In this document: positions 9,830 to 41,911 of the stretch, one piece after another
Numbering within the stretch: position 1 is the first letter of the stretch
Layout: every line of letters begins with the position of its first letter
Assembly (NCBI RefSeq): GCF_015710575.1
Contig: NZ_CP065373.1
Span: 5,022,001-5,086,000, forward strand
Direction of reading: 5' to 3'
DNA from: Mycolicibacterium mengxianglii
GTDB taxonomy: Bacteria; Actinomycetota; Actinomycetes; Mycobacteriales; Mycobacteriaceae
DNA: 64,000 bases
Notes under the pieces: generated by a model
What the model was told of the DNA's origin: nothing
Databases searched by the model: none
Seen by the model: the letters and a program-made list of their open reading frames with translations, nothing else
Position numbers and translations under genes: made by a program

Positions 9830-10627
9830 ATGGGAGCCAAATTGCTGAACAGTATTCCGCGGCGCATTGTTCGTGCCAATGTGGCGATAAGCGAGCGTAT
9901 CGAACCGTCGATCATCGAGAATACCCACGCCTATACGAAGTACTACGAGACCGGCGAAAACCTTCTCCGACTCGAGCCGAACCATGTTCTCGACGTGGGA
10001 GCCGGCAAGGAATGGCCTTTCGCTCCAGAACTGAAGCGCCAGGGCATGAGCCTGACCGGCTTCGATATCGACATCGACGAGATGTCGGGCAACGACCTAC
10101 TCGATCAAAAGCTCTGTGGCGACGCCTGTGAAAGCCTCGGTGTTCCAGATGGATCCGTCGACTTGATAATGGCGAGGGCAACCATCGAGCACTTACACGA
10201 CAATGCATCGTTCGTGAGGAATGCACACCGGGCCCTCCGGGAAGACGGCCGAATCATTGTGACCTTTCCGGGCAAGTACGCACCGTTCGCAATACTGAAC
10301 CGCATTCTGCCGCCACGGATAGCCCAGTGGCTCCTCCATCACCTGGTACCGGGATCGGACGGCATGCTGGGATTCAAGGCCTTCTATGACCAGGCGAGTT
10401 TTCATGAGTTCCGAGGGATTCTCGTCGATGCCGGATTCGAGATAGAGAATGAGTACGCGAGCTACTTCTCGTGCATGTACTACCGCTTTTTCGTCCCGTT
10501 GTTTGCGCTGGGCCTCGCTTACGATTACTTGTGCAGCTCGCTCGGCAACCCACGTTTCGCTTCGTACTTGATGTTTGTCGCCAAGAAAAGCCGCTACCCA
10601 TCGACTGACACACCGAATTCCCGTTGA
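9830..10627 (+). CDS. Class I SAM-dependent methyltransferase
   Basis: 265 residues. The SAM-binding fold is seen in motif I VLDVGAGKEWPFA (about residues 52-64), the acidic LTGFDIDID strand end, and DGSVDLIMARATIEHLHD (about 105-122), followed by REDGRIIVTFPG. The C-terminal part is hydrophobic (YYRFFVPLFALGLAY) and may lie on the membrane. It is the first gene of the glycan block. Its codon choice is less GC-biased than the steroid genes next to it, which hints at later acquisition. Methylation of a sugar or lipid carrier is inferred only from context. No strong ribosome-binding site precedes the ATG. Confidence 0.82.
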   Translation: MGAKLLNSIPRRIVRANVAISERIEPSIIENTHAYTKYYETGENLLRLEPNHVLDVGAGKEWPFAPELKRQGMSLTGFDIDIDEMSGNDLLDQKLCGDACESLGVPDGSVDLIMARATIEHLHDNASFVRNAHRALREDGRIIVTFPGKYAPFAILNRILPPRIAQWLLHHLVPGSDGMLGFKAFYDQASFHEFRGILVDAGFEIENEYASYFSCMYYRFFVPLFALGLAYDYLCSSLGNPRFASYLMFVAKKSRYPSTDTPNSR

Positions 10628-10775
10628 GACGCCACGTCTTCGGCAGCGCGAGGCGATGGCGCGGTCGTATTCAACGCGCAACGGTAGCCTTCGAGGTCGA
10701 CGGTGACGATGGCCAAGGGGCACGGTGATGCCGGCACCATGAAAGGAATTCGGGCGCTTTGAATGAGCAGACAGG

Positions 10776-11906
10776 TTGACCGGAAGCACTGACCTCTTGT
10801 TCGATGCGCGACACATCGATCAAAGCGGCATAGGCACCTACATCAGCGCCCAGGTACCCCGCCTGGAAGAGGCGCTGACTCGCCAGCAGCGCACACTTAC
10901 AGTCCTGGCGGATCGCAACAACCCTCCGCCTGTTCGTAAGAGCACCGCCGTGGTTTTTTCCGAGCCCGCCAACGCACCGATGTACTCCATCCAGGAGCAG
11001 CGCGCCTGGGATCACGCGGTGCAGACGACACAACCCAAGGCCATCTGGGTTCCTCACTATCCGTTCCCCGTCACCCTCTGGCGGAAGCGCAACCGGCGGA
11101 TTTTGAGCTTCAGCACGGTGCATGACGACAACCATCTGCTGCGGGCGAGTGTCAGCGGCCAGGGGCCGGCACGGAGAATCTATGCGCGCACGATGCTGGA
11201 AATCGATGCTCGGAAGTCGGAGACGGTCTTCACCCCGTCGCAGGCGGCCGCCGATGCTCTGGCGGAAGTCGTACCCTGCGCGCGGTTCGTCGTGACACCC
11301 ATCCCCGTCAGCGATATTTGGTTCGAACCGGCCGATCCGCAGCTGTCCCCGGTGCCGGGTAAGTACATCCTGTATCTCGGGAATGTCAAGCGGCACAAGA
11401 ATCTTCCGACTCTGCTCGACGCGTATGCACAAGTACGGCACGCGATCCCGCACCAGTTGGTGGTCGCGGGCAGCGGCGCATCGGTCCGAATGCTCGATGA
11501 ACGCGTCCGGGAACGAGCCACCGCGCTCGGGGACCGCGTCCAGATGCTCGGCCGACTCGACTTCGACGAATTGCATGCGCTCGTCGCGGGCGCAGACCTG
11601 CTGGTGATGCCGTCGTTCAACGAAGGCGCCGGACTTCCTCCCCTCGAAGCCATGGCGTCGCATACCGCCGTTCTGTGTTCGAACATCCCGTCCCTGCGCG
11701 AAACCTGCGGCGACGGTGCCGAGTATTTCGATCCACACGATCCCCGGGAGCTGGCCCAGCTGATCCGCACCTATTGCGACGACGACCAGGCCAGAAAGGA
11801 ACTGGCATCCAGGGGCTGGACGCACGTCACCCAGCGCCAGTCACGAATCTCGGCCGACGCCGCCGCTGACGCTATTGTCGCCAAACTCGATCAGTGCCCC
11901 TCTTGA
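10776..11906 (+). CDS. GT4-family glycosyltransferase
   Basis: 376 residues, TTG start. The GT-B fold is visible: N-terminal Rossmann half from LLFDARHIDQSGIGTYI, linker near FTPSQAAADAL, and the GT4 C-terminal half with ILYLGNVKRHKNLPTLLDAY (about 200) and the donor-binding E-x7-E region FNEGAGLPPLEAMA (about 285). The family transfers a sugar from a nucleotide donor with retention. The 3' end overlaps the next gene by 13 nt if that gene starts at its GTG. Acceptor and sugar are unknown; assembly of a polysaccharide repeat unit is inferred from context. Confidence 0.87.
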   Translation: MTGSTDLLFDARHIDQSGIGTYISAQVPRLEEALTRQQRTLTVLADRNNPPPVRKSTAVVFSEPANAPMYSIQEQRAWDHAVQTTQPKAIWVPHYPFPVTLWRKRNRRILSFSTVHDDNHLLRASVSGQGPARRIYARTMLEIDARKSETVFTPSQAAADALAEVVPCARFVVTPIPVSDIWFEPADPQLSPVPGKYILYLGNVKRHKNLPTLLDAYAQVRHAIPHQLVVAGSGASVRMLDERVRERATALGDRVQMLGRLDFDELHALVAGADLLVMPSFNEGAGLPPLEAMASHTAVLCSNIPSLRETCGDGAEYFDPHDPRELAQLIRTYCDDDQARKELASRGWTHVTQRQSRISADAAADAIVAKLDQCPS

Positions 11907-13465
11907 GGATGTCGCGGCGACGGTTCCTGCTCGCCGCCCCTCCGGTACTCGCGCTGTGGGGATGTTCGCCGCCGGCGTCGAGACCCATTGTCAACGTGCG
12001 CGACCACGGAGCGGTCGGCGACGGCACCAGCGACGATTCGGCGGCGATCACCGCCGCCGTGGCTGCCTTGGCGACGGGAAGTGTCCTGCACTTCCCGTCC
12101 GGCCGCTATCGGTTCGCTGAGCGCAATCCGAGCTCGGCCGCGGCCATCAGCGTGGCCGGTTTGTCGGACATCGACATCGACTTCGCGCCGGACGCGGAAC
12201 TGGTCATGGACAATGTGGATCCCCGCACCAACACCGGCACCAGTCACGGCATACTCATCCGCGGCCCCGCAGCCGGTATCACGCTGCGCAACGTCCATAT
12301 CCGATGGACGCAGCAGCCCAGGCGCTCGATGGGCGACGGGATACGCATCGTCGGTTTCCCCGATGATGTCGGCGCTGCGCCGGACGGTTGGAGTGGGCCC
12401 GCCGCCCCCGTCAGTGGTGTCACCCTCTCCAATTGCCTGATCCAGTCGGCCCCACAGGCCGGTGTCGTCATGATCGGGGTTTCCGACGTCACGGTCACCG
12501 ACTCGCGTGCCGAGAACACCCAGGCGGACGGTCTGCATTTCAACGCGTGCCGTCGGGGTACGGTCAGCGGTCATACCGCGGTGAACACCGGTGACGACGG
12601 GTTGGCTCTGGTCACGTACTTCTCCGACAAGTACTCCTTCGACCCAGCCGCAGAAATGTTCGCGTTTCCCGAGCTGACCGAATGGTCCAATACGGATTTC
12701 ACCGTCGAGAACGTGATGGTTTCCGGTGGGCAGGCCAACGGTGTGCGACTGGCCGGGGCCCACCGCGTCAGCATCAACGGGCTGAAAGTCACTGAGGTGC
12801 AGCACGGCTCGGCTGTCATGGTCGACTCCGCGACAGCAGGTCATGACGTCGAGTGGGAGTACGTCGCCACCCGAGGTTTGCGCGTGGCCGGTCTGACCGC
12901 GCAGGACTGCGAAACCGGTATCCACGTGCTTGCCCGTCCCCCGGAGAGCGTCGATCCGCGGTTCACCGATTTCGGTGTCGACATTGCCGATGCCCGCCTG
13001 CTCCGCTGCACAAACTGGTCGGTCAGGGTCGAGTCGCTTTCGGACCAACGGGCCACGGGAGTCAGCCTCGACCGGTGCCTCGTCGACGCCACATCGGCGG
13101 CGGGCGGCAACGGTGGCGTCGGGCTGAGCAGTACGCAAGGCGTACACCTCGGCCGGATATCGATCAACCATGCACAGGCCGTCACCATCTTCGCGGCTGC
13201 CGACACCGGGTTACTGACCGTAGATGACCTGGAGTTGACGTTGACCCAGCCGAACGGTTCCGACGACGCCGCGTCCTGCGCCCGGTTCGTGAACACCGAC
13301 GGTGCGATCGAGACGATGGCGCTGCGTTGGCCGGCCGCGCCGCCGGCGTGGAAACCTGTCCTCCTGGAACCTGTCTCGGCCTGCGATCAGGTTTCCCCGC
13401 CTCTGGTGATCAACACGCTCACAGTCGAACCGTCATTTCTGGCCGATCGAGTCACCTCCTGCTGA
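11894..13465 (+). CDS. Tat-exported lipoprotein with right-handed beta-helix (pectate-lyase-superfamily) fold
   Basis: 523 residues from a GTG start; an ATG at 11909 (MSRRRFLL) is equally plausible and keeps the whole signal. The signal peptide has a twin-arginine motif (SRRRFL) and a lipobox-like LALWGC, so export by Tat and lipid anchoring are predicted. The mature part opens with VNVRDHGAVGDGTSDDSAAI, the classic start of pectate-lyase/GH28-like beta-helices, followed by many short parallel-strand repeats. Such proteins cleave, epimerise or bind polysaccharides. A second lipoprotein of the same architecture lies at 25280-26413. A role outside the membrane on the glycan made by this block is inferred. 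Confidence 0.85.
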   Translation: MPLLRMSRRRFLLAAPPVLALWGCSPPASRPIVNVRDHGAVGDGTSDDSAAITAAVAALATGSVLHFPSGRYRFAERNPSSAAAISVAGLSDIDIDFAPDAELVMDNVDPRTNTGTSHGILIRGPAAGITLRNVHIRWTQQPRRSMGDGIRIVGFPDDVGAAPDGWSGPAAPVSGVTLSNCLIQSAPQAGVVMIGVSDVTVTDSRAENTQADGLHFNACRRGTVSGHTAVNTGDDGLALVTYFSDKYSFDPAAEMFAFPELTEWSNTDFTVENVMVSGGQANGVRLAGAHRVSINGLKVTEVQHGSAVMVDSATAGHDVEWEYVATRGLRVAGLTAQDCETGIHVLARPPESVDPRFTDFGVDIADARLLRCTNWSVRVESLSDQRATGVSLDRCLVDATSAAGGNGGVGLSSTQGVHLGRISINHAQAVTIFAAADTGLLTVDDLELTLTQPNGSDDAASCARFVNTDGAIETMALRWPAAPPAWKPVLLEPVSACDQVSPPLVINTLTVEPSFLADRVTSC

Positions 13466-13579
13466 GAGCACTCACCCTCGATGTGTTTGCTAGTGATGAA
13501 TTCATCGGGCACACTGGGCCGAACACACTGACGGGGGCATGGAGTGGTCCAGTCGCACTTGTATGACATGGGGACATCG

Positions 13580-14686
13580 ATGCGCTTCGCGTTTCTCACC
13601 GAGCTCTACCACCCGAATCTCGGTGGGCAAGAGGTGTTCTTTCAAGAACTTGCCGAGGCGATGGTACGGCGAGGCCATTCAGTCGACGTCTACTGCATCG
13701 GTCACCACACGAGCCTCGCCGTCGATGAGACCCTCAACGGGGTACGAATTCGGCGGAACCCGCTCAGTAACCACTACCTCAACCCACCGATCCCCGCACT
13801 GCGGCGGAATTGGTCTGACGTGCTGAGGTTCAGTGCCGGGGTTCGGCAGCACGTGGTGCCGCGACGATACGACTTCCACCTGGTGAACCAGTGGCCGCTA
13901 CTGCACGTCGCTGCCCTACCGCGAAAGCTGCGGGCACGCACTGGAATCCACTGGTGTGAGGTCCGTGAAGACCCGATCCTCGGTCAGGCGCAGCGGCGGC
14001 TCCCTCGGATGGTCGGCTCGAACTTCGCCGTCAGCAAGGCCGTCGCCGCAGCGATCACGGAGCAGTCGGGGCAACCGTGTTCGGTGCTGCCGAGTGGCAT
14101 CGAACTCACGCGGTACCGGGTTGCGGAACGCAGCCGGCGCTCCGGTGCCCTTTACGTCGGACGCCTGGCGCCGCACAAGAATCTCCCGTTACTCATCGAT
14201 GCCTTCGAACTCGCCGCGGCGCGAGGCTTCGACGGCGATCTGGTGATCGCCGGTGACGGCCCGACAAGAGCGGACATCGAGGATCACGCTGGCCGTTCCT
14301 CCCTGACATCGCGGGTGCACGTGCTCGGCTCCGTCACCGAGGCGCAGAAAATCCAGCTCCTCTCCCAAGCCGCCGTCCTGGGGATGCCCAGCCAGCGCGA
14401 GGGCTTCCCTCGGGTGATCGCCGAAGCAATGGCCAGTGGCCTTCCAGTGGTAACGGCCGGATTCCCCGAGAACGGGGCCAAAGACGTGGTGTCACAGTAT
14501 GGCTCGGGAGTTGTCTGCGGGACCGGACCCGCGGACTTCGCCGAGGCTCTGCTCACCGCCCAGGCCCAATGGGACACGTTCTCAACAGCCGGACTCGCGG
14601 GCGCACAGTCGTTGGATTGGTCGGGCATCGCCCAGGCCCTCGAGACGCGGGCGCTTGAGGTCTGCGGAAGATACCCAGTCGCATGA
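13580..14686 (+). CDS. GT4-family glycosyltransferase
   Basis: 368 residues from the ATG at 13580 (MRFAFLTELYHPNLGG), which has GGGGA 6 nt upstream; an in-frame GTG at 13544 would add 12 residues. The N-terminal half begins with the first GT-B strand and a glycine loop (PNLGGQEVFFQ). The C-terminal half has ALYVGRLAPHKNLPLLIDAF and QREGFPRVIAEAMASGLPVV, the donor-binding acidic motif of GT4 enzymes. Its stop overlaps the ATG of the downstream epimerase gene by 4 nt (ATGA). Confidence 0.87.
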   Translation: MRFAFLTELYHPNLGGQEVFFQELAEAMVRRGHSVDVYCIGHHTSLAVDETLNGVRIRRNPLSNHYLNPPIPALRRNWSDVLRFSAGVRQHVVPRRYDFHLVNQWPLLHVAALPRKLRARTGIHWCEVREDPILGQAQRRLPRMVGSNFAVSKAVAAAITEQSGQPCSVLPSGIELTRYRVAERSRRSGALYVGRLAPHKNLPLLIDAFELAAARGFDGDLVIAGDGPTRADIEDHAGRSSLTSRVHVLGSVTEAQKIQLLSQAAVLGMPSQREGFPRVIAEAMASGLPVVTAGFPENGAKDVVSQYGSGVVCGTGPADFAEALLTAQAQWDTFSTAGLAGAQSLDWSGIAQALETRALEVCGRYPVA

Positions 14687-15663
14687 CTGCAACAGTGGAG
14701 GGAGCGCGCGTGCGTGTAATGGTAACGGGTGGAGCGGGTTTCGTCGGTAGAGAGCTCGTTCGAATCCTCAGCACGAAAGCCGATGTGCTGGTTGCTGACC
14801 TACTGCGTTACGGCGCACCGGACTGGTTGACTCGAGATGATGCGAACTTCAGCTTCTCCCGGGTCGACATCCGCGATGCGGCGGCCACCCGAGCTCTGAT
14901 CGAGGATTTCCAGCCGGACGTCATCGTCCACCTGGCGGCCATTCACTACATCCCAGAGTGCGACGCCGACCCGGCGAACGCCGTGACCACCAATGTCACC
15001 GGAACCGTGAATGTGTTGGCGGGCTGCCCATCTGGTGTGCGGTTCGTCTTCGCCAGCAGCGGCGCGGTGTACGAGCCCGACGAGGCGCCTCACCGCGAGT
15101 TCGAGTCGGCACTCAACCCCGCCGACATCTACGGCATCACCAAGCTGCACGGCGAACACTATGTGCGCGCTTTTGCCGCTGACCGCGGCGTGACCGCCTC
15201 GATCGTTCGACTCTTCAACGTGATCGGGCCGGGTGAGACCAACCCGCATCTGCTGCCGGCCATTGTTGCTCAGCTTCGCGAAGGACCGAGTTCGATCAAC
15301 CTCGGAAACACCTGGCCCAAGCGTGATTACATCGACGTTCTGGATGCCGCCAACGGCTTCGCTGCCGTCGCTCTCGGAAGAAATTCCGAGGGCGTCGACT
15401 GTGAAACCGTCAACCTCGGTAGCGGTCAACAGTATTCGGTCGACGATATCCTGACCCGGATGCGGTCGGTTTTGGGGCTTCATTTCGAGGTCCGCCAGGA
15501 TCCGGCCCGCATGCGCGCCGTCGACCGCCCGTTCCTTGGTGCCGATATCTCGCACATCGGTGAGGTGTTCGGTTGGCAGCCCATGCACGAGCTGGACGAG
15601 ACCCTGAAACGCACGTGGGCGAACCCCGAGTTCCTGCCGGATTTGCAGGGGCGCCTGACCTGA
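14683..15663 (+). CDS. NAD-dependent epimerase/dehydratase (nucleotide-sugar, extended SDR)
   Basis: 326 residues. Rossmann motif VMVTGGAGFVGREL near residue 13, the strand/Ser segment FVFASSGAVYE and catalytic Tyr-Lys in YGITK near 150, all hallmarks of UDP-glucose 4-epimerase-like extended SDRs. The KRDYIDVLDAANG segment is the usual signature of the C-terminal sugar-binding half. It probably converts one nucleotide-sugar to another for the glycosyltransferases of this block; the substrate cannot be told. It is translationally coupled to the GT4 gene upstream and converges on the membrane-protein gene that ends at 15676. Confidence 0.87.
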   Translation: MTATVEGARVRVMVTGGAGFVGRELVRILSTKADVLVADLLRYGAPDWLTRDDANFSFSRVDIRDAAATRALIEDFQPDVIVHLAAIHYIPECDADPANAVTTNVTGTVNVLAGCPSGVRFVFASSGAVYEPDEAPHREFESALNPADIYGITKLHGEHYVRAFAADRGVTASIVRLFNVIGPGETNPHLLPAIVAQLREGPSSINLGNTWPKRDYIDVLDAANGFAAVALGRNSEGVDCETVNLGSGQQYSVDDILTRMRSVLGLHFEVRQDPARMRAVDRPFLGADISHIGEVFGWQPMHELDETLKRTWANPEFLPDLQGRLT

Positions 15664-15675: not shown

Positions 15676-16992
15676 TCAACGGTCGGCGGTCCGTCTCACG
15701 CTCCACCCTGCGATGGCCGCGCTGCCGATGGTGAGTGCCAGCAGATAGATGACGATGCCGTAGCTCAGTATCTGGATACGCCACATCTCGGCAAAACAGT
15801 AGGCGACCACACCTGCCGAACCGGCGACCACGGTGCCGTACCGGAAGATCCGGGCGAACACATAACCGGCGAGCGCGTAGAGACCGAATGTGTAGAGCCA
15901 GCCCCATACTCCGAACAGCGCGTAGGTATCCGCGAACACCGAAACCGTGAAAAAGTTGGGCGCGAACTTCACCGAGTAGCCGAACTCAGACGCACGCTTC
16001 CAGCTGTCTTCTTTGCTGACCTTGTCGAGCTGCAAGAAGGTCGGCTGGACCGCGGTCAGAGCGCTGACGGGGTCGGACTGGACGCGCCAGGCTCCACTCA
16101 TGACGGCCTCGGATACGCCGATGGACACCTGGGCCGGCACCGCGAGATACGCGCCCATCTGGTACAGGTTCATGGCGACCGGGTTCGACACCCCCGCGTC
16201 GCGGTAGTAATTCGCGTTGCGAAAGTAGTTCAAGGCGGCCAAGAGTGAGAATCCGACGACCGCGATGGTCAGGAGTGCGATCCAGCGGTTGGCGGCTTTG
16301 GTCGAGTTCTGCGGCGTCTTTTCGCGTTGCTTGACCCAGATCGCCAGGTAGACCACGCCCGCCATCAGCAAGGACAGCCGGTGTGCCAGCAACGCATTCA
16401 TCAGCAGGAGAACGACACTCAACACCATGAGCGGCCACGCGATGACTTTCTTGCGCCACAGGTAGATACCGATCGGCGCAGCCAGAATGGTCGAGTAGCG
16501 CAATGTCACCGGTGAAGCGGTGTTGGACAACGAGCCGTAGAGGTCGTTGCCGGTCTGCTCACTGAGTGACTCGATGATCGAGAGCGGGCTTCCGATTTGA
16601 TAGAACGAATAGCCGATTCCGATGAAAGCAGCCAGCAGGATCACGAAGAAGTAGCGGCGCTCGAACAGAACGGAATTGGTCAGCGCCACGACTTGCGGAC
16701 GCGACGGCGCCCGAGTTCCCAGTCGCCACGCCAACATCGACATCGAAACCACTGCGGCGTACCAGAAGACCAGCAGCACCACGCTTCGCGTGGTCAGTGA
16801 CTCCGGTTCCGAGAAGCCGGCGAGGTTTTCCCAGGCCCCGCCCGAATGACCGAGGACGTCGATGGCCCCCAACACACCCCATGCACCGAACGACGCGCCA
16901 ACCGGAGCCAGGATGAACAAGGCGGGCGCGAACCATCCTGCCGCGGTGGGCATCTCGTGGGACTTCGCCAACGACTGTGCTGCCCCCGACAT
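15676..16992 (-). CDS. Polytopic membrane protein, Wzy/O-antigen-polymerase-like
   Basis: 438 residues from the ATG at 16992 (MSGAAQSLAKSHEMP). The stop of the upstream gene and this ATG share one base (TGATG), which fixes the start; a longer frame to 17166 runs inside that gene. About ten hydrophobic segments are visible, for example SVVLLVFWYAAVVSMSMLAW and YFFVILLAAFIGIGYSFY, with a large extracytoplasmic loop in the second half (about residues 285-360). This layout is typical of Wzy-type repeat-unit polymerases and O-antigen ligases, whose sequences diverge widely. Pairing with a Wzc/Wzz-like gene supports this. No catalytic residue can be assigned. Confidence 0.7.
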   Translation of the reverse strand: MSGAAQSLAKSHEMPTAAGWFAPALFILAPVGASFGAWGVLGAIDVLGHSGGAWENLAGFSEPESLTTRSVVLLVFWYAAVVSMSMLAWRLGTRAPSRPQVVALTNSVLFERRYFFVILLAAFIGIGYSFYQIGSPLSIIESLSEQTGNDLYGSLSNTASPVTLRYSTILAAPIGIYLWRKKVIAWPLMVLSVVLLLMNALLAHRLSLLMAGVVYLAIWVKQREKTPQNSTKAANRWIALLTIAVVGFSLLAALNYFRNANYYRDAGVSNPVAMNLYQMGAYLAVPAQVSIGVSEAVMSGAWRVQSDPVSALTAVQPTFLQLDKVSKEDSWKRASEFGYSVKFAPNFFTVSVFADTYALFGVWGWLYTFGLYALAGYVFARIFRYGTVVAGSAGVVAYCFAEMWRIQILSYGIVIYLLALTIGSAAIAGWSVRRTADR

Positions 16993-19021: not shown

Positions 19022-19209
19022 CACTCATGATGTGGTTTGGCAAATTCAAAAGCGATTTCAAAAATCGCCGCATGTCCTCGTTGGCAAGCTGCTAGCGTGC
19101 GGTTATTCACCATCACCCATTGTCCCCAGTTCTAGGCAATGGCAACAAATCTGCCCAGCCGGACACCGGTCAGGACGGCGCCCCCCGAGGATGGAGAAGG
19201 GTCGATCAG

Positions 19210-20091: not shown

Positions 20092-20096
20092 AAACG

Positions 20097-31095: not shown

Positions 31096-31725
<630 letters not shown>

Positions 31726-31733
<8 letters not shown>

Positions 31734-32883: not shown

Positions 32884-34781
32884 CACGCCAGGTACCTCGG
32901 CATCTCGAGGCCGGCCGGTGTCAGGCCGACAGGCGGCGGGCATTCGGCGAGCTCAACGGGCGGGCTGCCCATGGCTCCCGCCTCTGCCGCCATCCACCTC
33001 ACCGCATCACTGTGGTCGCTGAACCGGTCCAATGCGGCCTCCCCTTCGATCAGCGCCAGAGGCGGCACGCTCACGTGGGAGACCAGTGGGTGAGCGGGCC
33101 GGTAGTCACCGGCCTCTCCCGGCCCGAAAAGCTCTTCGTGGAGCTTCTCCCCTGGCCGCAGCCCCGTGTAGACGATCTCGACGTCGTCCCGTTGCGCTCG
33201 GGACACCAGCAGTCGCGCCACATCGGCGATCTTCACCGGTGCGCCCATATCGAGAACCAGAGCCTCACCGCCGCTGCCGACGGCGGCAGCTTGCAGTACC
33301 AGCTGGGACGCCTCGGGGATGGTCATGAAGAACCGGGTTACGTCGGGATCGGTGACGGTCACGGGGCCACCTGCCTCGATCTGCCGCGAAAAGGACTCCA
33401 GCACCGACCCCCGTGACCCCAGTACGTTACCGAACCGCACGCTGAGGAATCGGCCGTTCGAGTGAGTCGCGATGTGTGCGGTCAGACGTTCAGTGACACG
33501 CTTGCTGTACCCCAGGACACTTACCGGTCCCGCCGCCTTGTCGGTCGAGATGTTGACGAAAGTGTCGACTCCCAGTTCCCTTGCCGCGCAGAGAACATTC
33601 CACGTGCCGACAACATTGGTCATCCACGCTTCCAGTGGATACTTCTCCAGTAGCGGCAGGTGCTTCAGCGCTGCGGCATGGATCACCACCTCGGGCCGGC
33701 ATGCCTCGAATACCCGTCGTACCGCGCACGCGTCGCGGATATCGGCAAGGACAGTGTCATCATCGTCGAGCAGGGCCCGCCCGTAGATCGACAGCTGAGC
33801 AGCGTGCAGTGCTGATTCGTCACGGTCCAGCATGATCAACGTCGCGGGGGCGAACCGGTGGATCTGCCGACACATCTCTGAGCCTATGGATCCCCCAGCG
33901 CCGGTGACCAGGACACGACGACCCGTGATCTGCGCGGAGATCACCGCCTCGTCCAGATGCGCTGGAGACCTTCCGAGTAGATCGTCGAGACGGAGATCTC
34001 GTACATCCTGGGACGGCCGCGCACTCCGCACCAACTGTGCCGCGGGCGGGACCACCAGGGCCCCGATGCCCAACAGCGCCGCCTCCGACGAGACGTCCCT
34101 CACCAGTTCGGGATCCGGGTCCGCAATCGCGATCACCACCGCATCCGCTTTGAAACGGCCTACAACAGAGGCCAGATCGCGCCGGGTACCCCGCACCTGC
34201 ACGCCGGCGACGTGGAGGTGTCGCCTACGGGGGTCGTCATCCAGCAGTGCCACGAGCTCATAGGGCATCCGCTCGTCCAGCTGCATCTGCCGTGCCAAAT
34301 TCTGTCCGGTACGACCGGCGCCCAGGATGACGACTTTGCGGCGGTTTGTACCGCCCATGCGGGGCGACCGCCCCACCTTGCGGGCCAGCCAGCGCACCGC
34401 GAACATTCCGCCCAATGCCACCATGCCTGCGAGCACCGGAACGCTGCGCGGCACCAAATATGGCGTCACCACACTGACTGCCAGGAGCAGCACCACAGAT
34501 GAGATCGCCGCAACTGTTGCCAGCGCAACGCATTCCTCGAAACTCGCGACGACATAACGTCGTCGGTAGATTCCCATGACGCTGCCGATCGCGGCGTTGG
34601 TGACCATTGCCGTCCCCGCAAAGATCGCGGTGGGGACTATTCGCACCTGGTCGATGTCGAAGTCGAAACGCACCCAGGCCGCTATCCAGACCGCAATGCA
34701 CCAGACGATGGTGTCCGGAATCCAGCACCGCGACGCCGATACCACCTGAGCTGTGCCCACGGCACGTTCGTAGTAACTCAC
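32883..34781 (-). CDS. Membrane-bound nucleotide-sugar 4,6-dehydratase, WbpM/PglF/CapD type
   Basis: 632 residues from GTG 34781, overlapping the RmlA stop as GTGA; ATG 34796 is an alternative. Four N-terminal membrane helices (about residues 15-125) are followed by a CoA-binding-like Rossmann domain ([17 protein letters not shown], about 150) and the catalytic SDR domain with [17 protein letters not shown] (about 295) and [19 protein letters not shown] (about 410). Large dehydratases of this class usually have Met or Tyr four residues before the active Lys; here the residue is Leu, with a Tyr two before the Lys. Conversion of UDP-GlcNAc to a 4-keto-6-deoxy sugar is the expected reaction. Confidence 0.9.
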
Positions 34782-35656
34782 TTCTCTGTCCCCCATTGAT
34801 CGAGAAGGCCGAGCAGATAGAGCCCGTATCCTGACTTGTGCAACCGTTCCCCGTGGCCCCGCAGATCGTCATCGCTGATGAAACCCCGGCGCCAGGCGGC
34901 CTCTTCGGGCACGCCGACTTTCAGACCTTGGCGTTCTTCGATGGTGCGAACGTAATTGCCTGCGTCAAGCAAGGATCCGAATGTCCCGGTGTCGAACCAC
35001 GCGGTCCCCCGGGGGAGCACCTCGACGTCCAGTTTGCCGCGGTCCAGATATTCGCGGTTGACGTCGGTGATTTCGTATTCACCACGATCTGAGGGCGTCA
35101 ATGCGCCGGCGATGCCCACCACGTCGTTGTCATAGAAATACAGGCCGGGCACGGCGTAGGCAGATCGCGGAGACTTCGGCTTTTCCTCCAACGAGAGTAC
35201 GTGGCCCTGTTGGTCGAATTCCACCACGCCGTACGCGCTCGGATCCGACACCCGGTAGGCGAAGATGGACCCACCCTCGATCTCGCGAAAGCGACTCAAT
35301 TGCGATCCCATGTTTGGACCGTGAATGAGGTTGTCGCCCAACACCAGTGCCACGGCTTCGGTGCCGATGTGATCTCTACCGATGACAAATGCCTGGGCCA
35401 AACCATCGGGGGTCGGCTGTACCGCATAGGTGATCGCGACCCCGAACTGCGCTCCGTCGCCCAGCAACCGACTGAAAGCGGCCGCGTCCGTCGGCGTGGT
35501 GATGACGAGGATGTCGCGAATGCCCGCAAGGATCAATGTCGACAACGGGTAATAGATCATCGGCTTGTCGTAGACCGGAAGTAGTTGCTTGCTGGTGCCG
35601 ACCGTGATCGGGTTCAGTCGTGAGCCGGCCCCCCGGCGAGGATGATCCCGCGCATA
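34778..35656 (-). pseudogene. rmlA: Glucose-1-phosphate thymidylyltransferase-like (RmlA), frameshifted in codons 8-10
   Basis: From the ATG at 35656 the frame reads [10 protein letters not shown] and stops four codons later. One extra base in the C6 run at 35630-35635 would restore the family start [13 protein letters not shown]. Downstream the protein is complete: [28 protein letters not shown] (metal Asp), [16 protein letters not shown], and [12 protein letters not shown]. RmlA makes dTDP-glucose from glucose-1-phosphate and dTTP. As written the nucleotide-binding loop is out of frame, so activity depends on slippage, on another start that lacks the loop, or on a base missing from this sequence. 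It sits between an epimerase gene and the dehydratase gene. Confidence 0.8.
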
Positions 35657-35749
35657 TCTGTGCCCACCCCTCGGTACCTCGTTATCAGATGTTGTTACAG
35701 ATGAAGTCTGTTGCCACACCGCTCATCTGGGTCATGCCGATTGATCTCG

Positions 35750-36697
35750 TCACGCACCGATGAGCAGAGCCGGCTCGGGCTCGAGCCTGGCGCGCAGCCA
35801 CTGCATGGTGCGCTCGGTGCCCTCGGCCAAGCTGACGTTTGCCTTCCACCCGAGCTCGCTTCCGGACCTGACCCGGTCCCGCGTGCCGAAGGCCCCCCTT
35901 TCGCGCCGCGGACCGGACAGATCTAGTGGCGGCACATCGCTGGTGGCAGTTTGGTCCCCGGTTCCGATGGTGAATGTTCCGGTCGTTTCCAACGGTGCAT
36001 CGGCAGCACACAGGAAGGCTTCGACCGCATCGTCGACGTAGACGAACTCGTGGCGGGGCGCCACCTCTCGCGACACGGCCACAGGTTGTCCGGTGATCAT
36101 CGACGTGCCGAGGCGTGTTATCACACCCCCCGGCCCATGGAGATTCTGACGGGGGCCGTATACCGTCGGCAGCGCCAGACTGATGGGTGCCAGGCCGTAC
36201 ATCTCACCGTATGCGTTCAGGTACATCGCGCCGGCGAGCTTGGCCACCAGATATGGCGACAGTGGATTCGGCTGCGCGTCCTCGAACACATGGCCCTGCG
36301 TGTCGGGATACGAACACTCAACCCCGGCATAAACGACCCTGCGGACACCTGCGCGGCGGCTCGCCTCACACACGTTGAGCGTGCCCAGCACGTTGCTACG
36401 GGCATCGAACTGAGGATCATCCACTGACGTCTGCAGATCCACCTGAGCCGCGAGGTGGAAGATGACATCGGGATTGCTGCCCACCACGATCCCCGTCAGG
36501 TCGGGCGTCTGAACATCACGGCGTAGGAAGGTAAATCGTCCAGGACCTCGCACGTTCAACCGAACGGCCTGAGTGAGATTGTCCAACACGCCACTACGGA
36601 GATTGTCGACGCCGATCACCTGGTGGCCGTCGGCCAGCAGCCGATCGACCAGATTCGACCCGATGAAACCGGCAGCACCGGTGACCAAGACCCTCAT
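35750..36697 (-). CDS. NAD-dependent nucleotide-sugar epimerase/dehydratase
   Basis: 315 residues from ATG 36697 (MRVLVTGAAGFIGSNLVDRL); a GTG 9 nt upstream is an alternative. The extended-SDR signature is complete: TGAAGFIG at the N terminus, IFHLAAQVDL, and the Tyr-Lys in SPYLVAKLAG. The usual YSSGG-like Ser region is replaced by VVYAGVECSYP. PTVYGPRQ and HEFVYVDDAV resemble UDP-glucose 4-epimerases and UDP-glucuronate epimerases. It lies 27 nt after glmS and precedes rmlA. Confidence 0.87.
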   Translation of the reverse strand: MRVLVTGAAGFIGSNLVDRLLADGHQVIGVDNLRSGVLDNLTQAVRLNVRGPGRFTFLRRDVQTPDLTGIVVGSNPDVIFHLAAQVDLQTSVDDPQFDARSNVLGTLNVCEASRRAGVRRVVYAGVECSYPDTQGHVFEDAQPNPLSPYLVAKLAGAMYLNAYGEMYGLAPISLALPTVYGPRQNLHGPGGVITRLGTSMITGQPVAVSREVAPRHEFVYVDDAVEAFLCAADAPLETTGTFTIGTGDQTATSDVPPLDLSGPRRERGAFGTRDRVRSGSELGWKANVSLAEGTERTMQWLRARLEPEPALLIGA

Positions 36698-36724
36698 GAA
36701 GTACACACCTGTCGGTTCATCTGT

Positions 36725-38509
36725 TCACTCCACGGTCACTGACTTCGCGAGGTTTCGGGGTTTGTCGACGTCGTTACCCCGAGCCAGCGCCAGTGTGCGG
36801 GCGAGGATCTGCATCGGAATCACACTGTCGATGGGTCCCCACGGTCCAATAGAACTGCGCCGCAACGGGATCTCGCTTCCAGCAGGACCGATACCGACGA
36901 TGCGCCCACCCCTTGCCGCCACCTCGGCGATGTTGGCGGCGAGCTTGGGGTCGCCGTTGTCGATGACAATCACCGGGGTTCCGTCTCCGACCAACGCAAG
37001 TGGCCCGTGCTTGAGTTCACCGGCGGGATAGTGTTCAGCCCAGCGGTACGTCAGTTCCTTGAGCTTGAGCGCGCCTTCAGCCGCGTACGGCAGACCGGAA
37101 CCCCTGGCGATGAACAGGAAGCCGGTGGCCGCCCAGAACTCCTCGGCGATCGGTGGCACGAGGCACTTCGCCGCAGTGCCCGCCGCGCTGATCTGTTCTG
37201 GCACCTGCTTCAGCTCGTCAACCAGAGCAGCTGCCTCGATGGTGGACAATCGTTTTGTCGCCACGAGCGCCGACATCATCATCGCTGCACCGGCAATGAC
37301 CTGGCACACGAACGTCTTTGTGGCGGCGACACCGATCTCCGGCCCGGCGGCGCAACTGACGAATGCATCCGCATACCGGGCCAGGGTCGAATGTGGGTTA
37401 TTGGTGAGCGCCAGGACTGGCCCATCGCTGGGCCGGGTTTCGAGAGCTCGTAACACATCGGCTGTTTCGCCGGACTGGCTGACGGCCAGACACAACGTTC
37501 CGGGTTCGACGACCTCATCGGCGGCCTCACTTGCGACGGTGAGTGTCACCGCCACACCACCGAGCCGACGGGCCAGATTGGCGATCACGCGGCCTGCATT
37601 CAGGGAAGTGCCGCAGCCGAGGATCTGCAACCGGTCAAACGGGGCCAAACCCAGATCGCTCCAGAGCGTCCCGTTGACCACCTTGCCGCTGAGCTCGTCG
37701 AGCACTCGGGCTGCGGCCGTCGGCTGTTCGTCGATCTCCTTGGCCATGTAGTCCACGTAGCCGTTCAACTCGGTGTCGGCACCCCGCCAACTGCATCTGG
37801 CCATCACCGGAGCCTCTGAACGACCGTTGAGGTCCCGGTGCCCGTCGGCTTCGGTCAGCTCCACCACATCACCGTCTTGAAGCACCCGGAATTCGTCGAC
37901 CCAGTCGGCGACTGCTGCGATATCACTCGTTGCGAAGTCGCCATGTCCGGTGTGCGCCACGAGCAGGGGGGACCGGTTCGCAGCGACGACGAGCCGGCCG
38001 GTGTGCTCCTCGAGAACCGCTATCGCCCAGGACCCCACAACCGCAGCGAGTGCCGATTCGACTGCGGCGGCGAGATCGTCGACGGTTTTGCGCCGGTCCT
38101 CGATGAGATGGCACAAGACCTCGCTGTCCACTGTCGACCTGAACAAGTGCCCGGTTCTTTCGAGAGCGCCCCGAAGCTCGTCAGCGTTCTCGATGATTCC
38201 GTTGTGCACCACCGCGATACGGCCGGTGCAGTCGAGGTGCGGATGCGCGTTGTCTTCGGTGACTGAACCGTGAGTCGCCCACCTGGTGTGTCCGATTCCC
38301 AGACCGTCCAACTTCGGACCGCGCCAGCAGCTGACCAATTGATCCAGTGAACCGATACGCCCCACCGTACGAAGCCTCGCCACACCGCCGGTATCCGTGC
38401 GAACCGCCACCCCCACCGAGTCATAACCGCGGTACTCCAGCCGCCGAAGAGCTGCCAGGAGGTAGTCGATCGCAGGTGCATGCGTTCGGCAGGCGATGAT
38501 GCCGCACAT
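36725..38509 (-). CDS. glmS: Glutamine-fructose-6-phosphate aminotransferase (isomerizing), likely island-specific copy
   Basis: 594 residues beginning MCGIIACRTH, so the nucleophile is Cys2 after Met removal; an upstream frame to 38569 would block this N-terminal Cys and is rejected. The glutaminase domain has RRLEYRGYDSVGVA, HTRWATHG and HNGIIENADELR. Two SIS domains follow (ILGCGTSLNAGRV, SQSGETADVL) and the protein ends DKPRNLAKSVTVE, as GlmS does. It makes glucosamine-6-phosphate, the precursor of UDP-GlcNAc. Mycobacteria need a housekeeping glmS elsewhere, so a copy inside a glycan operon suggests dedicated supply. It is the first gene of the long operon, downstream of a repeat element. 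Confidence 0.92.
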   Translation of the reverse strand: MCGIIACRTHAPAIDYLLAALRRLEYRGYDSVGVAVRTDTGGVARLRTVGRIGSLDQLVSCWRGPKLDGLGIGHTRWATHGSVTEDNAHPHLDCTGRIAVVHNGIIENADELRGALERTGHLFRSTVDSEVLCHLIEDRRKTVDDLAAAVESALAAVVGSWAIAVLEEHTGRLVVAANRSPLLVAHTGHGDFATSDIAAVADWVDEFRVLQDGDVVELTEADGHRDLNGRSEAPVMARCSWRGADTELNGYVDYMAKEIDEQPTAAARVLDELSGKVVNGTLWSDLGLAPFDRLQILGCGTSLNAGRVIANLARRLGGVAVTLTVASEAADEVVEPGTLCLAVSQSGETADVLRALETRPSDGPVLALTNNPHSTLARYADAFVSCAAGPEIGVAATKTFVCQVIAGAAMMMSALVATKRLSTIEAAALVDELKQVPEQISAAGTAAKCLVPPIAEEFWAATGFLFIARGSGLPYAAEGALKLKELTYRWAEHYPAGELKHGPLALVGDGTPVIVIDNGDPKLAANIAEVAARGGRIVGIGPAGSEIPLRRSSIGPWGPIDSVIPMQILARTLALARGNDVDKPRNLAKSVTVE

Positions 38510-38607
38510 CACTCGGCCTCCTTGACGCCGCCGGCGTGCACTGTTGTCGATGTGTTCGCCACGCGACACCCACTTCGACTCAGAGCGAACTCGATTGATA
38601 CCACTCC

Positions 38608-38671: not shown

Positions 38672-39598
38672 CTAGTCCTGCCGGCCACCCTGGGTGGATC
38701 GAACCGTGCGGGAAAGGGCAGCGGCTTGAGCCCGGCTGCTCACCCCTAGCTTGGTAAGCAGGTTATGAACATGGTTTTTCACCGTGTGCACGGCGATTTC
38801 GAGGTGGTCTGCGATATCCCTGTTCGACCGGCCCAGTTCCAGCATCTTAAGGATCTGGGCCTCTCGCGCCGTGAGAGCCAGATCCTTGGCCGCCGGCGCG
38901 GGTGTAGATGCCAGCAGCGTCAGTCGGCGCAGCAACATCGTCGACACCTGGGCCGGGCAAAAGGACTCTCCGGCCGCCACATTGCGGATCATCGTGATCA
39001 AGCTGGCGAGTGAGTCGGTGCGCATGTGGTAGCCGGCCACCCCGGCCTCAGCACAAGCGATGATGCTCTCCTCGTCTTGTTCTGACACCCCGAATACGAT
39101 CACCCGCACAGCCGGAGCGATATCCATCACGGCGCGGAGTAACAGATCACTCCCCGCGGTGGACATGTTGAGCAGGACCAAGCTGATATCGGCCGGGTCG
39201 AAAGCCATTACCACAGAAGGCAAGTCCCATGCGAGGCGCGCGGCAGTTATCCCGTTGGCTGCGAGGACAGCGGCAAGATTCTCCCGGAACAGTGTGCAGT
39301 CATCAATGATCAACACGCTCAATGCACTCTGTGAATCGCAATCGGCCGTTCGGTCTACGGCCAGATTCAACAGCTCAGCGGCGCCCGACGAACTGCGCCG
39401 ATGACGATCGGGCGTGGCTTCGTCGGGCGGCCACCCGTCGGGTGACCAGACCTGATCCCCGTTGCTGTTCTGGTGCCCCCAGCCGTCACCTCCAGGCTGA
39501 CCGAGCGAACCCGTTGGGTATCGGCCCTCCACCGGCTGCGGTTCCGAGCCAATTGGATGGTCAGCAACCTCTGCTACCAGGCAGTGCACTTTTGCCAT
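38672..39598 (-). CDS. LuxR-type transcriptional regulator with pseudo-receiver domain, copy 1
   Basis: 308 residues from ATG 39598 (MAKVHCLV), which has AGGGAGACGAAG just upstream. A disordered N-terminal stretch of about 90 residues is followed by a receiver-like domain (LSVLIIDDCTLFRENLAAVL) and a C-terminal LuxR/GerE helix-turn-helix (LTAREAQILKMLELGRSNRD, then VHTVKNHVHNLLTKLG). The acidic pair DD is kept, but the phospho-acceptor Asp is replaced by Asn in LVLLNMS and the conserved Lys is missing in AGYHMR, so control by phosphorylation is unlikely. A close paralogue lies at 41036-41911. Control of the downstream glycan operon is inferred. Confidence 0.87.
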   Translation of the reverse strand: MAKVHCLVAEVADHPIGSEPQPVEGRYPTGSLGQPGGDGWGHQNSNGDQVWSPDGWPPDEATPDRHRRSSSGAAELLNLAVDRTADCDSQSALSVLIIDDCTLFRENLAAVLAANGITAARLAWDLPSVVMAFDPADISLVLLNMSTAGSDLLLRAVMDIAPAVRVIVFGVSEQDEESIIACAEAGVAGYHMRTDSLASLITMIRNVAAGESFCPAQVSTMLLRRLTLLASTPAPAAKDLALTAREAQILKMLELGRSNRDIADHLEIAVHTVKNHVHNLLTKLGVSSRAQAAALSRTVRSTQGGRQD

Positions 39599-39690
39599 CT
39601 TCGTCTCCCTGCCGTGGCGGCCCACATTGTCACCAGACACCTGCCACGGACCGCGTGTTGTGCATTGACGCTCGAGCCCACTGCGCGGAA

Positions 39691-40848
39691 CTAATCAGTG
39701 CCCGAGGACGCTCCGCCCGATCCGTTCGACGAGGAGTCATTGCCTGAGCCGCCACCGGAATTGTCTGACCCGCCATCGGAGTTGCCCTGGGAGCCTGCGC
39801 CTGACCCCGCGCCGCCACCGTCGGAGACGTCTGATCCCGACGGGGACCCACCGCCCAGTTCGTTCCCGCTTGGTCCACCACCGTCGCTTTCCGGTGAGTC
39901 GTCATTCTCAGAGGGGTAGGGCCCCAGCTGCCCGTCGAGGAAAGTGGGCTCTGGTTCCGGTTCTGGCGCAGGAGAACTCGGTGCCGTCACGGGATCCGGA
40001 AGGAAAGTTTCCGTTGGTGTGATCGTCTCGGGGACATACACGTCGACAAAAGTTGGTGCCACCGATGGTGGTACCACATCGACCGGCACGGACGTCGGCG
40101 CGGGTACAACTTCGGACGGCGCAGTGAACTCCGGATTCGGCGGTGGTGGTGGCGGTGGCGGGGGTGGCGGTGGCGGCGGTGGCGGCGGGGCCATCCAGTC
40201 AGCCGGCACCGGTGGTCCGAGCTGTACCTGCGTCTGCGCCTGCGCCTGCGCGGGTTGGACCGCGATCGAATTGATAATCGTCGATACCAGCTGCGCAACT
40301 AGCCCGAAGATCTCCCCACCCGCTTCGTAAGCCTTTCGCATGAGCAGCTCGATCAGCATCATTAATTGCGGCGGAATCTGTCCGGTCGTCGGCGCGCCGA
40401 ATCCGCCGCCTCCCCCTCCTGCCACCGTCAACCCGGTAATGGACACGGGCCCAACGGAAGTGACGATTTCGAGCGCTGTCATGAGGTCTCGCAACCGGTA
40501 CGTGGTGACGAGTTCGAGCAACGCTTCCTGGGGAAGTTGAGCACGTGCTGCATCCAGCAGCGTGACCAGCTGGGAGAGGTCTCGCAGGTTGAGATCCATC
40601 AGGCTTGCGCTGTTGCGGTTCAGCGAGATCGGCTTCAACAAATTGGGGAAATCTGCCACCTCTACAAAGCGAGGCGCGTCGCCGAACAAGTGCAGCGGGC
40701 TCGACGCCGGGTACACGGTGGCGCTGAATGCCACAGCCGCAGAGACAACGGCTGCTCCGATGATGCGGTTGCGGGAGCGCTCCGATTCTTCGTAAGTCCC
40801 AGCGACCTTCGGAGCGCTCTTCGTATTCGTGTTCGAACCAGGCATCAT
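39691..40848 (-). CDS. Proline-rich, membrane-anchored exported protein with 17-proline run
   Basis: 385 residues, start MMPGSNTN. A single hydrophobic helix (RIIGAAVVSAAVAFSATVYP, about residues 28-47) without a clear cleavage site suggests an N-terminal anchor with the rest outside. Next come helical, leucine-rich stretches (LNLRDLSQLVTLLDAARAQL), a glycine patch, a second hydrophobic stretch (GLVAQLVSTIINSIAV), a run of 17 prolines (bases 40138-40188), a Pro/Val/Glu spacer and an acidic Gly/Ser/Asp tail. The proline run and tail look like a cell-wall-spanning stalk. I recognise no family. It is flanked by the two LuxR-type genes and has its own copy of the repeat element upstream. Confidence 0.75.
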   Translation of the reverse strand: MMPGSNTNTKSAPKVAGTYEESERSRNRIIGAAVVSAAVAFSATVYPASSPLHLFGDAPRFVEVADFPNLLKPISLNRNSASLMDLNLRDLSQLVTLLDAARAQLPQEALLELVTTYRLRDLMTALEIVTSVGPVSITGLTVAGGGGGGFGAPTTGQIPPQLMMLIELLMRKAYEAGGEIFGLVAQLVSTIINSIAVQPAQAQAQTQVQLGPPVPADWMAPPPPPPPPPPPPPPPPPNPEFTAPSEVVPAPTSVPVDVVPPSVAPTFVDVYVPETITPTETFLPDPVTAPSSPAPEPEPEPTFLDGQLGPYPSENDDSPESDGGGPSGNELGGGSPSGSDVSDGGGAGSGAGSQGNSDGGSDNSGGGSGNDSSSNGSGGASSGTD

Positions 40849-40951
40849 CTACGCCTCTCTCCGGCGCGGTGGCCCGCGGTCCCTCGCCACCACCCGGAGG
40901 TGGTGTCGCTACGTCGATTTCGAGTTCTGGCTAACGTGCACCGCACGGGTC

Positions 40952-40992
40952 TACTATCGGCTCAACCCTGCCCGGTCGTACATGGACCATCG
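40952..40992 (-). promoter_or_regulatory. Repeated promoter element upstream of proline-rich gene (copy 2)
   Basis: ACTATCGG (40952-40959) and CGTACATGGACCATCGG (40976-40992) duplicate the element in front of glmS with a one-base difference in spacing. It lies 104-144 bp before the proline-rich gene's ATG and 44 bp after the end of the second LuxR-type gene. Confidence 0.55.
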
Positions 40993-41035
40993 GAGCTATT
41001 TTCAAACCGGTTCTCTACCTGGATCTCAGAGGCGC

Positions 41036-41911
41036 CTAGCTGTAGTGGACCGTCCGAGAAAGGGCCACAGCTTCCGTCCGGGTACTGGCACCGAGCTTGG
41101 TCAAGACACTGTGGACATGGTTCTTCACTGTGTGCAGCGCGATGCACAAGTGGTCGGCTATTTCGCGGTTGGACAGGCCCAGTTCGAGCATCCCAAGGAT
41201 CTGGATCTCACGCGACGTGAGCACTGGTTCCTTGACGACAGGTTGGCGCTGCGCCGCCAACGCAGAGAGTCGTTTGAGAAGGATCGTGGTCACCCGTGGC
41301 GAACAGGCGGACTCCCCCTCGATTACCTTCGAGATCAGCTTGATCAGATCATCCAGTGATTCCGTACGGAGGTGATAGCCCGCCACTCCCGCTTCGGCAC
41401 ACGCAACGATGATGGATTCGTCGTCGTCAGAGATACCGACCGCGATCACCTTCACGTCGGGGTATCTCTGTCGGATGGAACCCAACAACCCCACGCTGCC
41501 GTGGGTGCCCATGTTCAACAGGACGATCTCAGGTGTGCGCTCCCCCAGTGATGCGATCAATGAGGGCAGATCCCACGCCACCGCGGGCACGGTGTGTGCA
41601 CCGAGTGCGAACATGGCAGCCAGATTCTCGCGGTGGAGCGTGCAGTCATCGACGATCAACATCACGACATCGGGGAGTTGAACTCGCGGTTCGCCCATGT
41701 CGCGCCGATGGTGAGCAAGGGGAGGCACCGGCTTGTCGACCACATGGGCGTAGGAGAAGGAGACCCGGTCTGTCATCGGGCCCTTCGTGCCGGCTGTCGC
41801 GTCCAGGACCAATGACTGGCTTGCGCCCCGCGACAAGTTGAGATCGATTGATCGTGGCACGCTGACGTGCCTGGCTTCCCCACCCTCAGTCGGATGCGTG
41901 AGATGAGTCAT
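41036..41911 (-). CDS. LuxR-type transcriptional regulator with pseudo-receiver domain, copy 2
   Basis: 291 residues from ATG 41911 (MTHLTHPTEGG); a longer frame to 42046 has no ribosome-binding site. A receiver-like domain (VMLIVDDCTLHRENLAAMF, VPAVAWDLPSLIASL) shares most positions with the copy at 38672-39598, including the Asn that replaces the phospho-acceptor (IVLLNMG) and the missing Lys (GYHLRTES). The C-terminal helix-turn-helix (LTSREIQILGMLELGLSNRE, LHTVKNHVHSVLTKLG) is intact. An orphan, phosphorylation-independent regulator is inferred. It is the first gene at the right end of the glycan block. Confidence 0.87.
   Translation of the reverse strand: MTHLTHPTEGGEARHVSVPRSIDLNLSRGASQSLVLDATAGTKGPMTDRVSFSYAHVVDKPVPPLAHHRRDMGEPRVQLPDVVMLIVDDCTLHRENLAAMFALGAHTVPAVAWDLPSLIASLGERTPEIVLLNMGTHGSVGLLGSIRQRYPDVKVIAVGISDDDESIIVACAEAGVAGYHLRTESLDDLIKLISKVIEGESACSPRVTTILLKRLSALAAQRQPVVKEPVLTSREIQILGMLELGLSNREIADHLCIALHTVKNHVHSVLTKLGASTRTEAVALSRTVHYS

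Follow-up and report, generated by a model that had tools for sequence, protein, structure and literature searches.

Between two steroid-degradation genes, hsd4B and ltp2, the window analysed here (the whole stretch of 64,000 nucleotides, G000:C1:5022001-5086000, in a genome of 5.96 Mb on a single contig) carries an island of 28 genes over 32.9 kb, measured from the end of the hsd4B homologue to ltp2 (Table 1). The gene families represented comprise a priming transferase, a Wzx-type protein, two Wzy-like proteins, one Wzz, four glycosyltransferases, sugar-nucleotide enzymes and two LuxR regulators. We propose that the island is probably a mosaic locus for a Wzx/Wzy-type heteropolysaccharide, placed at a chromosomal site that mycobacteria frequently re-use.

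A preliminary description of this DNA, from which (together with position) the name hsd4B for the left border gene was taken, had listed a PglC-type priming enzyme, Wzx, two Wzy-like and two Wzz-like proteins, four glycosyltransferases, sugar-nucleotide enzymes, lipoproteins and dedicated regulators. Pfam recovers the PglC-type enzyme, one Wzz, the four glycosyltransferases, the sugar-nucleotide enzymes and, inside the island, two LuxR response regulators; it assigns the second Wzz-like protein to no family and gives no match at E ≤ 1e-3 for Wzx or either Wzy-like protein, for which profile and homologue support is indirect. The lipoproteins are two beta-helix proteins by Pfam, with lipobox-like N termini judged by eye.

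Composition, modules and assigned families

Reading frames were chosen by codon-position GC content and family scans used Pfam and NCBIfam; Pfam was run on all 28 island genes, with four further open reading frames (ORFs), probably not genes, also taken. Base composition supports a foreign-like island: GC content at third codon positions (GC3) is 0.734 in 29 script-picked island ORFs, compared with 0.814 in the flanks (24 ORFs) and 0.812 in 258 ORFs from 15 control stretches of the same genome, whose lowest stretch mean is 0.759. The shift in base use and the A+T-rich gap at the right border, both pointed out in the preliminary description, are real features of the stretch. That description had also placed the two border genes close together in Mycobacterium tuberculosis, and in a published account only PPE63 lies there between hsd4B (Rv3538) and ltp2 (Rv3540c) (PMC6429209).

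The island consists of two modules. From the ltp2 end, the minus strand of the right module (21-42 kb) encodes RR2, a Pro/Gly-rich secreted protein, RR1, GlmS, Epi2, RmlA and PglF-like and PglE-like enzymes, followed by the PglC-like enzyme, Wzx, GT2, Wzy1, Wzz1, BH2, GT4c, GNAT2, an ATP-grasp ligase and a HAD-type hydrolase. By sequence, the solved structure nearest to the priming enzyme is PglC (8g1n, E 3e-45) and that nearest to the dehydratase is WlaL (5bju, E 4e-72), which we take to be PglF; 1o61 and 4ztc, among the best hits of the aminotransferase, are presumably PglE of Campylobacter jejuni. The genome has three GlmS proteins, of which the island copy is 41-42% identical to the other two. 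The third GlmS-like copy (G000:C1:4145496-4147367) contains one in-frame TGA.

The left module (10-18 kb) has relatives elsewhere. GT4a, BH1, GT4b, Epi1, Wzy2 and the parts of a gene spread over two frames occur together at other loci in two genomes (G035 and G137, 52-82% identity), and looser relatives occur in G191, G042, G153 and G095; these six were opened out of 16 other genomes with a Wzy2 match, and in all six a PglC-like match (39-43%) lies near the relatives. The window's module has no priming gene of its own and no counterpart of a second Wzz2-like gene found in the relatives, and is a partial copy of a module that other mycobacteria keep, elsewhere, with its priming enzyme. The second Wzz-like protein of the preliminary description was not confirmed: it is split over two frames in the window, and since its parts are joined in a single open frame in both G035 and G137, the gene here appears to be either broken or misread.

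In profile–profile comparison, the Wzx family (A1) matches c7, a cluster of flippases from other inserts at the site whose representative carries PF01943, with a probability of 96 (E 4e-9, 377 columns), versus at most 0.7 for four unrelated controls (the Wzy families and two other clusters of proteins with several transmembrane (TM) segments); of 19 family members scanned one by one, only two give a PF01943 match at E ≤ 1. The weak PF14296 matches of the Wzy1 family have a best E value of 3.9e-5. A protein search that scored 8,000 candidates gave 180 homologues of Wzy2, several of which, from species that include M. malmesburyense, M. litorale, M. vaccae and M. hodleri, carry the name O-antigen polymerase or repeat-unit polymerase; PF14296 occurs in 4 of the 120 listed. 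At E ≤ 1e-60, Wzy2 is present in 17 of 198 same-genus genomes, its own included; tblastn detected it in none of the other 31 hsd4B–ltp2 intervals read. These names and matches are consistent with a polymerase role for Wzy1 and Wzy2. Queried against the sequences in the PDB, the profiles of Wzx and Wzy1 gave no hits. In protein searches that scored 8,000 candidates each from 5.8 billion proteins, Wzx had 27 hits and Wzy1 16, own copies included, and because five Wzx/Wzy1 hit pairs name contigs of equal size (12004, 163026, 11534, 4828 and 12889), the data suggest that the two genes stay linked.

Table 1 Features of the window (positions counted from its first nucleotide).
Feature	Position	Strand	Evidence or remark
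kstD-containing ORF, left flank	6328..8817	+	NCBIfam NF005882 971.7 bits, over cut-off; KstD match from residue 274
hsd4B homologue, left border	8819..9679	+	PF01575 and PF22622 over cut-off (MaoC/MFE-2 hydratase)
Methyltransferase, 55.5% GC	9830..10627	+	PF13489
GT4a glycosyltransferase	10776..11906	+	PF00534; 71-74% in G137, G035 module
BH1 beta-helix protein	11894..13465	+	PF12708, PF13229; lipobox-like N terminus by eye; 64-66% in G137, G035
GT4b glycosyltransferase	13544..14686	+	PF00534; 65-68% in G137, G035
Epi1 NAD-epimerase/dehydratase	14683..15663	+	PF01370; 81-82% in G035, G137
Wzy2-like putative repeat-unit polymerase	15676..17166	-	Homologue names; real start probably ~16995
Two-frame gene, "Wzz2" by position only	16992..18253	-	Parts 16992-17591 and 17339-18253
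VanZ-like membrane protein	18455..19021	+	PF04892
PhyH-type oxygenase	19120..20091	+	PF05721
GNAT/FemAB-like transferase 1	20097..21173	+	PF13480
HAD-type hydrolase	21143..21910	-	PF00702 over cut-off
ATP-grasp ligase, PylC-like N-domain	21907..23196	-	PF21360, PF02655; real start probably ~22965
GNAT/FemAB-like transferase 2	22971..24035	-	PF13480; 64% in G066
GT4c glycosyltransferase	24089..25267	-	PF00534
BH2 beta-helix protein	25280..26599	-	PF12708, PF13229; lipobox-like N terminus by eye
Wzz1 chain-length protein	26406..27320	-	PF02706, PF13807 over cut-off
Wzy1-like putative polymerase, ~11 TM (hydropathy)	27327..28754	-	Weak PF14296 in 10/15 family members
GT2 glycosyltransferase	28745..29734	-	PF00535
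Putative Wzx flippase, ~11 TM	29728..31095	-	Profile–profile match to Wzx cluster c7
PglC-type priming phosphoglycosyl transferase	31092..31973	-	PF02397 214.3 bits; real start probably ~31736
DegT/PglE-type aminotransferase	31726..32943	-	PF01041; best PDB hits 1o61, 7b0m, 4ztc
PglF-type UDP-GlcNAc 4,6-dehydratase	32883..34796	-	PF02719, PF13727
RmlA nucleotidyltransferase	34778..35719	-	TIGR01207 425.5 bits, over cut-off
Epi2 NAD-epimerase, steadier end	35750..36706	-	PF01370
GlmS paralog, steadier end	36725..38569	-	TIGR01135 over cut-off
RR1, LuxR-type, no phosphoacceptor Asp	38672..39640	-	PF00196; PF00072 below cut-off
Secreted Pro/Gly-rich protein between regulators	39691..40848	-	Translation; no Pfam match
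RR2, LuxR-type, no phosphoacceptor Asp	41036..42046	-	PF00196, PF00072
A+T-rich right border	42047..42609	.	55.8% GC; 43.6% GC at 42431-42540
ltp2, right border	42610..43776	-	NF005892 over cut-off

The hsd4B–ltp2 site across the genus

Among the 198 same-genus genomes, ltp2 is present in 184 (E ≤ 1e-150) and hsd4B in 181 (E ≤ 1e-100). The matches listed gave 129 genomes with both genes, of which 11 were dropped (genes on different contigs) and 118 kept; the two genes are convergent in all 118 pairs. Of these pairs, 65 lie less than 3 kb apart, 24 are separated by 3-10 kb and 29, including that of the window, by 10-57 kb. The preliminary description had presented the island as an insertion and had pointed out that mycobacterial surface glycans are mostly made by other routes; the insertion is not a single event, the site being recurrent and variable, and Wzx/Wzy-type parts are not exotic in mycobacteria, with PF02397 priming transferases in 148 of the 198 genomes (E ≤ 1e-20). 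The same set is nevertheless not shared by all mycobacteria: among 297 same-genus genomes, a close Wzx was found only in the window's own, with matches of 26-27% in two more.

We read 32 intervals: the window's own, 28 others above 10 kb, one of 9.8 kb, and those of G056 (38.7 kb) and G084 (37.6 kb). A glycosyltransferase together with a priming transferase, Wzx or Wzz was detected in 23 of them by cluster profiles, which were built from the same ORFs on which they were run (765 in total, some counted twice as the fetched pieces overlap). Each cluster was annotated by a single representative; 14 of the 20 representatives have Pfam matches, including PF01943, PF02706, PF02397, GT2, GT4, GH16, a deacetylase and a UDP-sugar dehydrogenase, and 6 have none. 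In the G056 interval, a flippase (PF13440, PF01943) and a Wzy_C protein (PF04932) score over cut-off.

The end of the inserts near ltp2 is steadier and the middle variable. GlmS occurs in 14 of the 32 intervals, and, taking the best pair between two genomes, GlmS has a median identity of 63% and the regulators have one of 59%, whereas, for flippases from 18 genomes, no more than 71 of the 153 pairs could be aligned (median 31%). G066 keeps the window's order RR2, RR1, GlmS, Epi2, PglF, DegT, PglC at 55-75% identity (73-75% for PglC, DegT and PglF) without an RmlA match, and its flippase and transferases are different; in G056 and G084, the closest genomes by hsd4B, GT4a, GT4b and Epi1 are 68-79% identical and the rest is mostly different.

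In G068 (L060:4511-10057) and G085 (L066:6480-12029), one open frame at the site encodes a protein of 1,848-1,849 residues, 62% identical between the two genomes, in which a Wzx flippase is combined with an APH-fold kinase, a GT2 glycosyltransferase and a 12-TM domain; G056 has Wzx and the 12-TM protein as two separate proteins encoded side by side. A protein of 958-989 residues in G138 (L068:4993-7869) and G119 (L071:143-3112), 79% identical, combines a Wzx half of the window's type with a half of about 10 TM segments that matches none of the profiles tried, and is a candidate flippase–polymerase fusion. In G033 (L100:3081-17196), polysaccharide genes share the interval with a nonribosomal peptide synthetase of 2,088 residues and a hybrid polyketide/peptide synthase of 2,615 residues. 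The intervals of G009, G045, G065, G074, G133, G153 and G175 (9.8-30 kb) hold no polysaccharide genes of the kinds sought, so the site takes other cargo as well.

The two regulators beside ltp2 belong to a group with altered receivers. In 28 aligned regulators (four ORFs shorter than 200 residues having been left out), the phosphoacceptor position is N in 15, S in 8, T in 2, and R, A and D in one each, so that Asp is missing from 27. RR2-like proteins (E ≤ 1e-25) occur in 29 of the 198 genomes and, in 23 of these, within 38 kb of hsd4B or ltp2 on the same contig; among the remainder, G077 has its copy near the site if the chromosome is circular, G171 has two copies elsewhere, and four lie on other contigs. 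G066 and G109 have an extra, weaker match (31-39%) on another contig. Across 249 genomes of the order, 24 besides the window's have an RR2-like match, and those listed belong to other genera and are 32-47% identical. Family scans of the 28 island genes showed no histidine kinase. The protein encoded between the regulators has a long run of prolines and a tail rich in Gly, Ser and Asn; in G056 and G084, a protein of another cluster occupies that place.

As to how cassettes move, the window's hsd4B is closest to those of G056 (91%) and G084 (86%) and its ltp2 to those of G071, G117 and G013 (92-93%) among the matches listed, a difference that fits strain exchange by recombination in the conserved flanks, a possible route; across seven genomes compared, most genes further out differ by only a few points in DNA identity. 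Other origins were rejected: positions 9000-33999 have no near match among plasmids; viral contigs hold no flippase relative and the window no tRNA; the only word common to both ends (11 bases, at 9762 and 42162) is near chance expectation for terminal repeats; and 18 Wzx loci in named species reach only 25-39% in the best segment, in a search that may omit records close to the window's, which speaks against a single known cultured donor. The Wzx hits that reach as high as 77% lie on jgi, lgn or ena contigs, which are probably metagenomic. None of the 28 island genes was recognised as an integrase or transposase in the family scans.

Proposed pathway and competing explanations

On the basis of the family assignments, the GlmS paralog would feed the supply of UDP-N-acetylglucosamine (UDP-GlcNAc), which the PglF- and PglE-like enzymes would convert into a UDP-4-amino-4,6-dideoxy sugar for the PglC-like enzyme to load onto polyprenyl phosphate. 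The GT2 and GT4 enzymes would then lengthen the repeat unit, Wzx would flip the lipid-linked unit, and Wzy1 would polymerise the units under chain-length control by Wzz1, with the GNAT, ATP-grasp and beta-helix proteins possibly trimming or decorating the polymer. RR1 and RR2 may regulate the locus without the usual phosphorylation. No PglD-type acetyltransferase (TIGR03570) scores over cut-off genome-wide (best 47.9 of 160.8 bits), a result compatible with an acetyltransferase of another kind, and no STT3 (PF02516) match was found genome-wide at E ≤ 0.01, in a search whose positive controls were confined to four archaea and which is thus not shown to detect the bacterial type; given these two results, the 4-amino group of the first sugar may stay free, or a GNAT protein may modify the sugar. 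N-glycosylation was rejected on the same STT3 result.

Several observations weigh against a Wzx/Wzy polymer locus. Among the 28 island genes scanned there is no OPX-type exporter and no LCP ligase, and the island offers no candidate for export across, or anchoring in, the mycomembrane. The Wzx profile reaches only 2.9 against a second cluster, c83, which is a flippase by Pfam (PF13440, PF01943), yet c7 scores 92 against c83, so that the window's Wzx would be a distant member of the flippase family at best. Wzy1 scores 15.9 bits in NCBIfam (cut-off 40); against c84, the Wzy_C protein of G056, profile–profile comparison gives 0.0 for Wzy1 and 0.6 for Wzy2, and 1.6 for Wzy1 against Wzy2. Neither part of "Wzz2" matches the Wzz family in Pfam. 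Across the site, none of the genes sought occurs in 7 of the 32 intervals and only glycosyltransferases in 2; RR1 has a match in only 16 of the 31 other intervals; and six of the 153 Wzx pairs are at least 70% identical, so some cassettes are shared.

The lipid-linked oligosaccharide made by the PglF-, PglE- and PglC-like enzymes and Wzx could instead serve protein glycosylation, with a Wzy-like protein acting as an O-oligosaccharyltransferase onto secreted proteins. Wzy proteins and O-oligosaccharyltransferases are difficult to separate by sequence, and the nearest solved structures of the priming enzyme and dehydratase are C. jejuni Pgl proteins; but Wzz1 points to long chains, the STT3 search was negative within its archaeal controls, and the beta-helix proteins suggest a polymer as substrate, and we regard this explanation as unlikely. 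Somewhat less likely still is a decaying island, in which captured pieces of two polysaccharide clusters no longer make a polymer: this would account for a left module that lacks the priming enzyme and second Wzz2-like gene of its relatives and has its own Wzz2-like gene in two frames, but the right-module ORFs are all open and retain the coding GC3 pattern.

Mycobacteria are well known for glycolipids of the lipooligosaccharide and glycopeptidolipid types, and the synthases beside polysaccharide genes in G033 recall loci of that kind, at which a short glycan is placed on a lipid and no polymer is made. The window's 28 genes include no such synthase, however, and do include Wzy-like proteins and Wzz, which makes a glycolipid locus very improbable here. 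We favour a locus for a Wzx/Wzy-type heteropolysaccharide: the island holds an apparently complete gene set for an extracellular sugar polymer, in line with the preliminary description, but has to be redrawn as a mosaic in which the left of two modules is partial and contains a two-frame gene. Calculation establishes the families of most genes, their linkage, the recurrence of such sets at the site, the mosaic structure and the pseudo-receivers of the regulators; the polymer and its first sugar, the catalytic steps, the polymerase assignment, the role of the regulators and exchange between strains are inferred.

Relation to known systems

Little is known about which genes make mycobacterial surface polymers. 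A 2019 review of mycobacterial biofilms still presents the genetic pathways of biofilm polysaccharides as an open research opportunity (PMC6364259). Among the literature matches listed, which included few subscription papers, none described a Wzx/Wzy locus in mycobacteria or this site. A fixed site with varying cassettes offers a direct way to find polysaccharide genes, namely between hsd4B and ltp2, and if a coat is made, it would matter for biofilm formation and phage adsorption in environmental mycobacteria and for the typing of their strains. Evenly balanced, in our judgement, is the broader proposal of a mycobacterial capsule-type locus: a fixed site by ltp2 at which whole cassettes are swapped, often under the control of two LuxR regulators, seldom present elsewhere in the genus, whose receivers cannot be phosphorylated, in some lineages with fused assembly-line proteins, giving environmental mycobacteria strain-specific coats, built here from a bacillosamine-type sugar.

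The island resembles the C. jejuni Pgl system in its dehydratase and priming transferase, closest among solved structures, and in its aminotransferase, also close; unlike that system, it lies in a genome without PglD over cut-off or an STT3 match. LuxR regulators of the VpsT type control exopolysaccharide and carry the cyclic di-GMP motif W[FLM][TS]R. RR1 and RR2 share with them a LuxR output, an unusual receiver and a nearby polysaccharide locus, but the similarity to VpsT is weak (3kln, E 2.4e-10), VraR, DevR and NarL score better, and the motif was not seen by eye in either protein.

With Wzx/Wzy capsule and exopolysaccharide loci, the island shares the clustering of priming transferase, flippase, polymerase-like protein, chain-length protein, glycosyltransferases and sugar enzymes; it differs from them in its mycobacterial host, in showing no outer-membrane exporter, and in the LuxR pseudo-receiver pair beside ltp2. 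The pneumococcal cps locus has fixed flanks, a conserved end and a variable middle. At the hsd4B–ltp2 site, the flanks are steroid-degradation genes, the regulators are of the LuxR type, and many genomes have the site short or otherwise filled; like cps, and recalling the capsule loci of other bacteria in its variable gene sets, it combines fixed flanking genes and a steadier end with different cassettes and highly divergent Wzx proteins.

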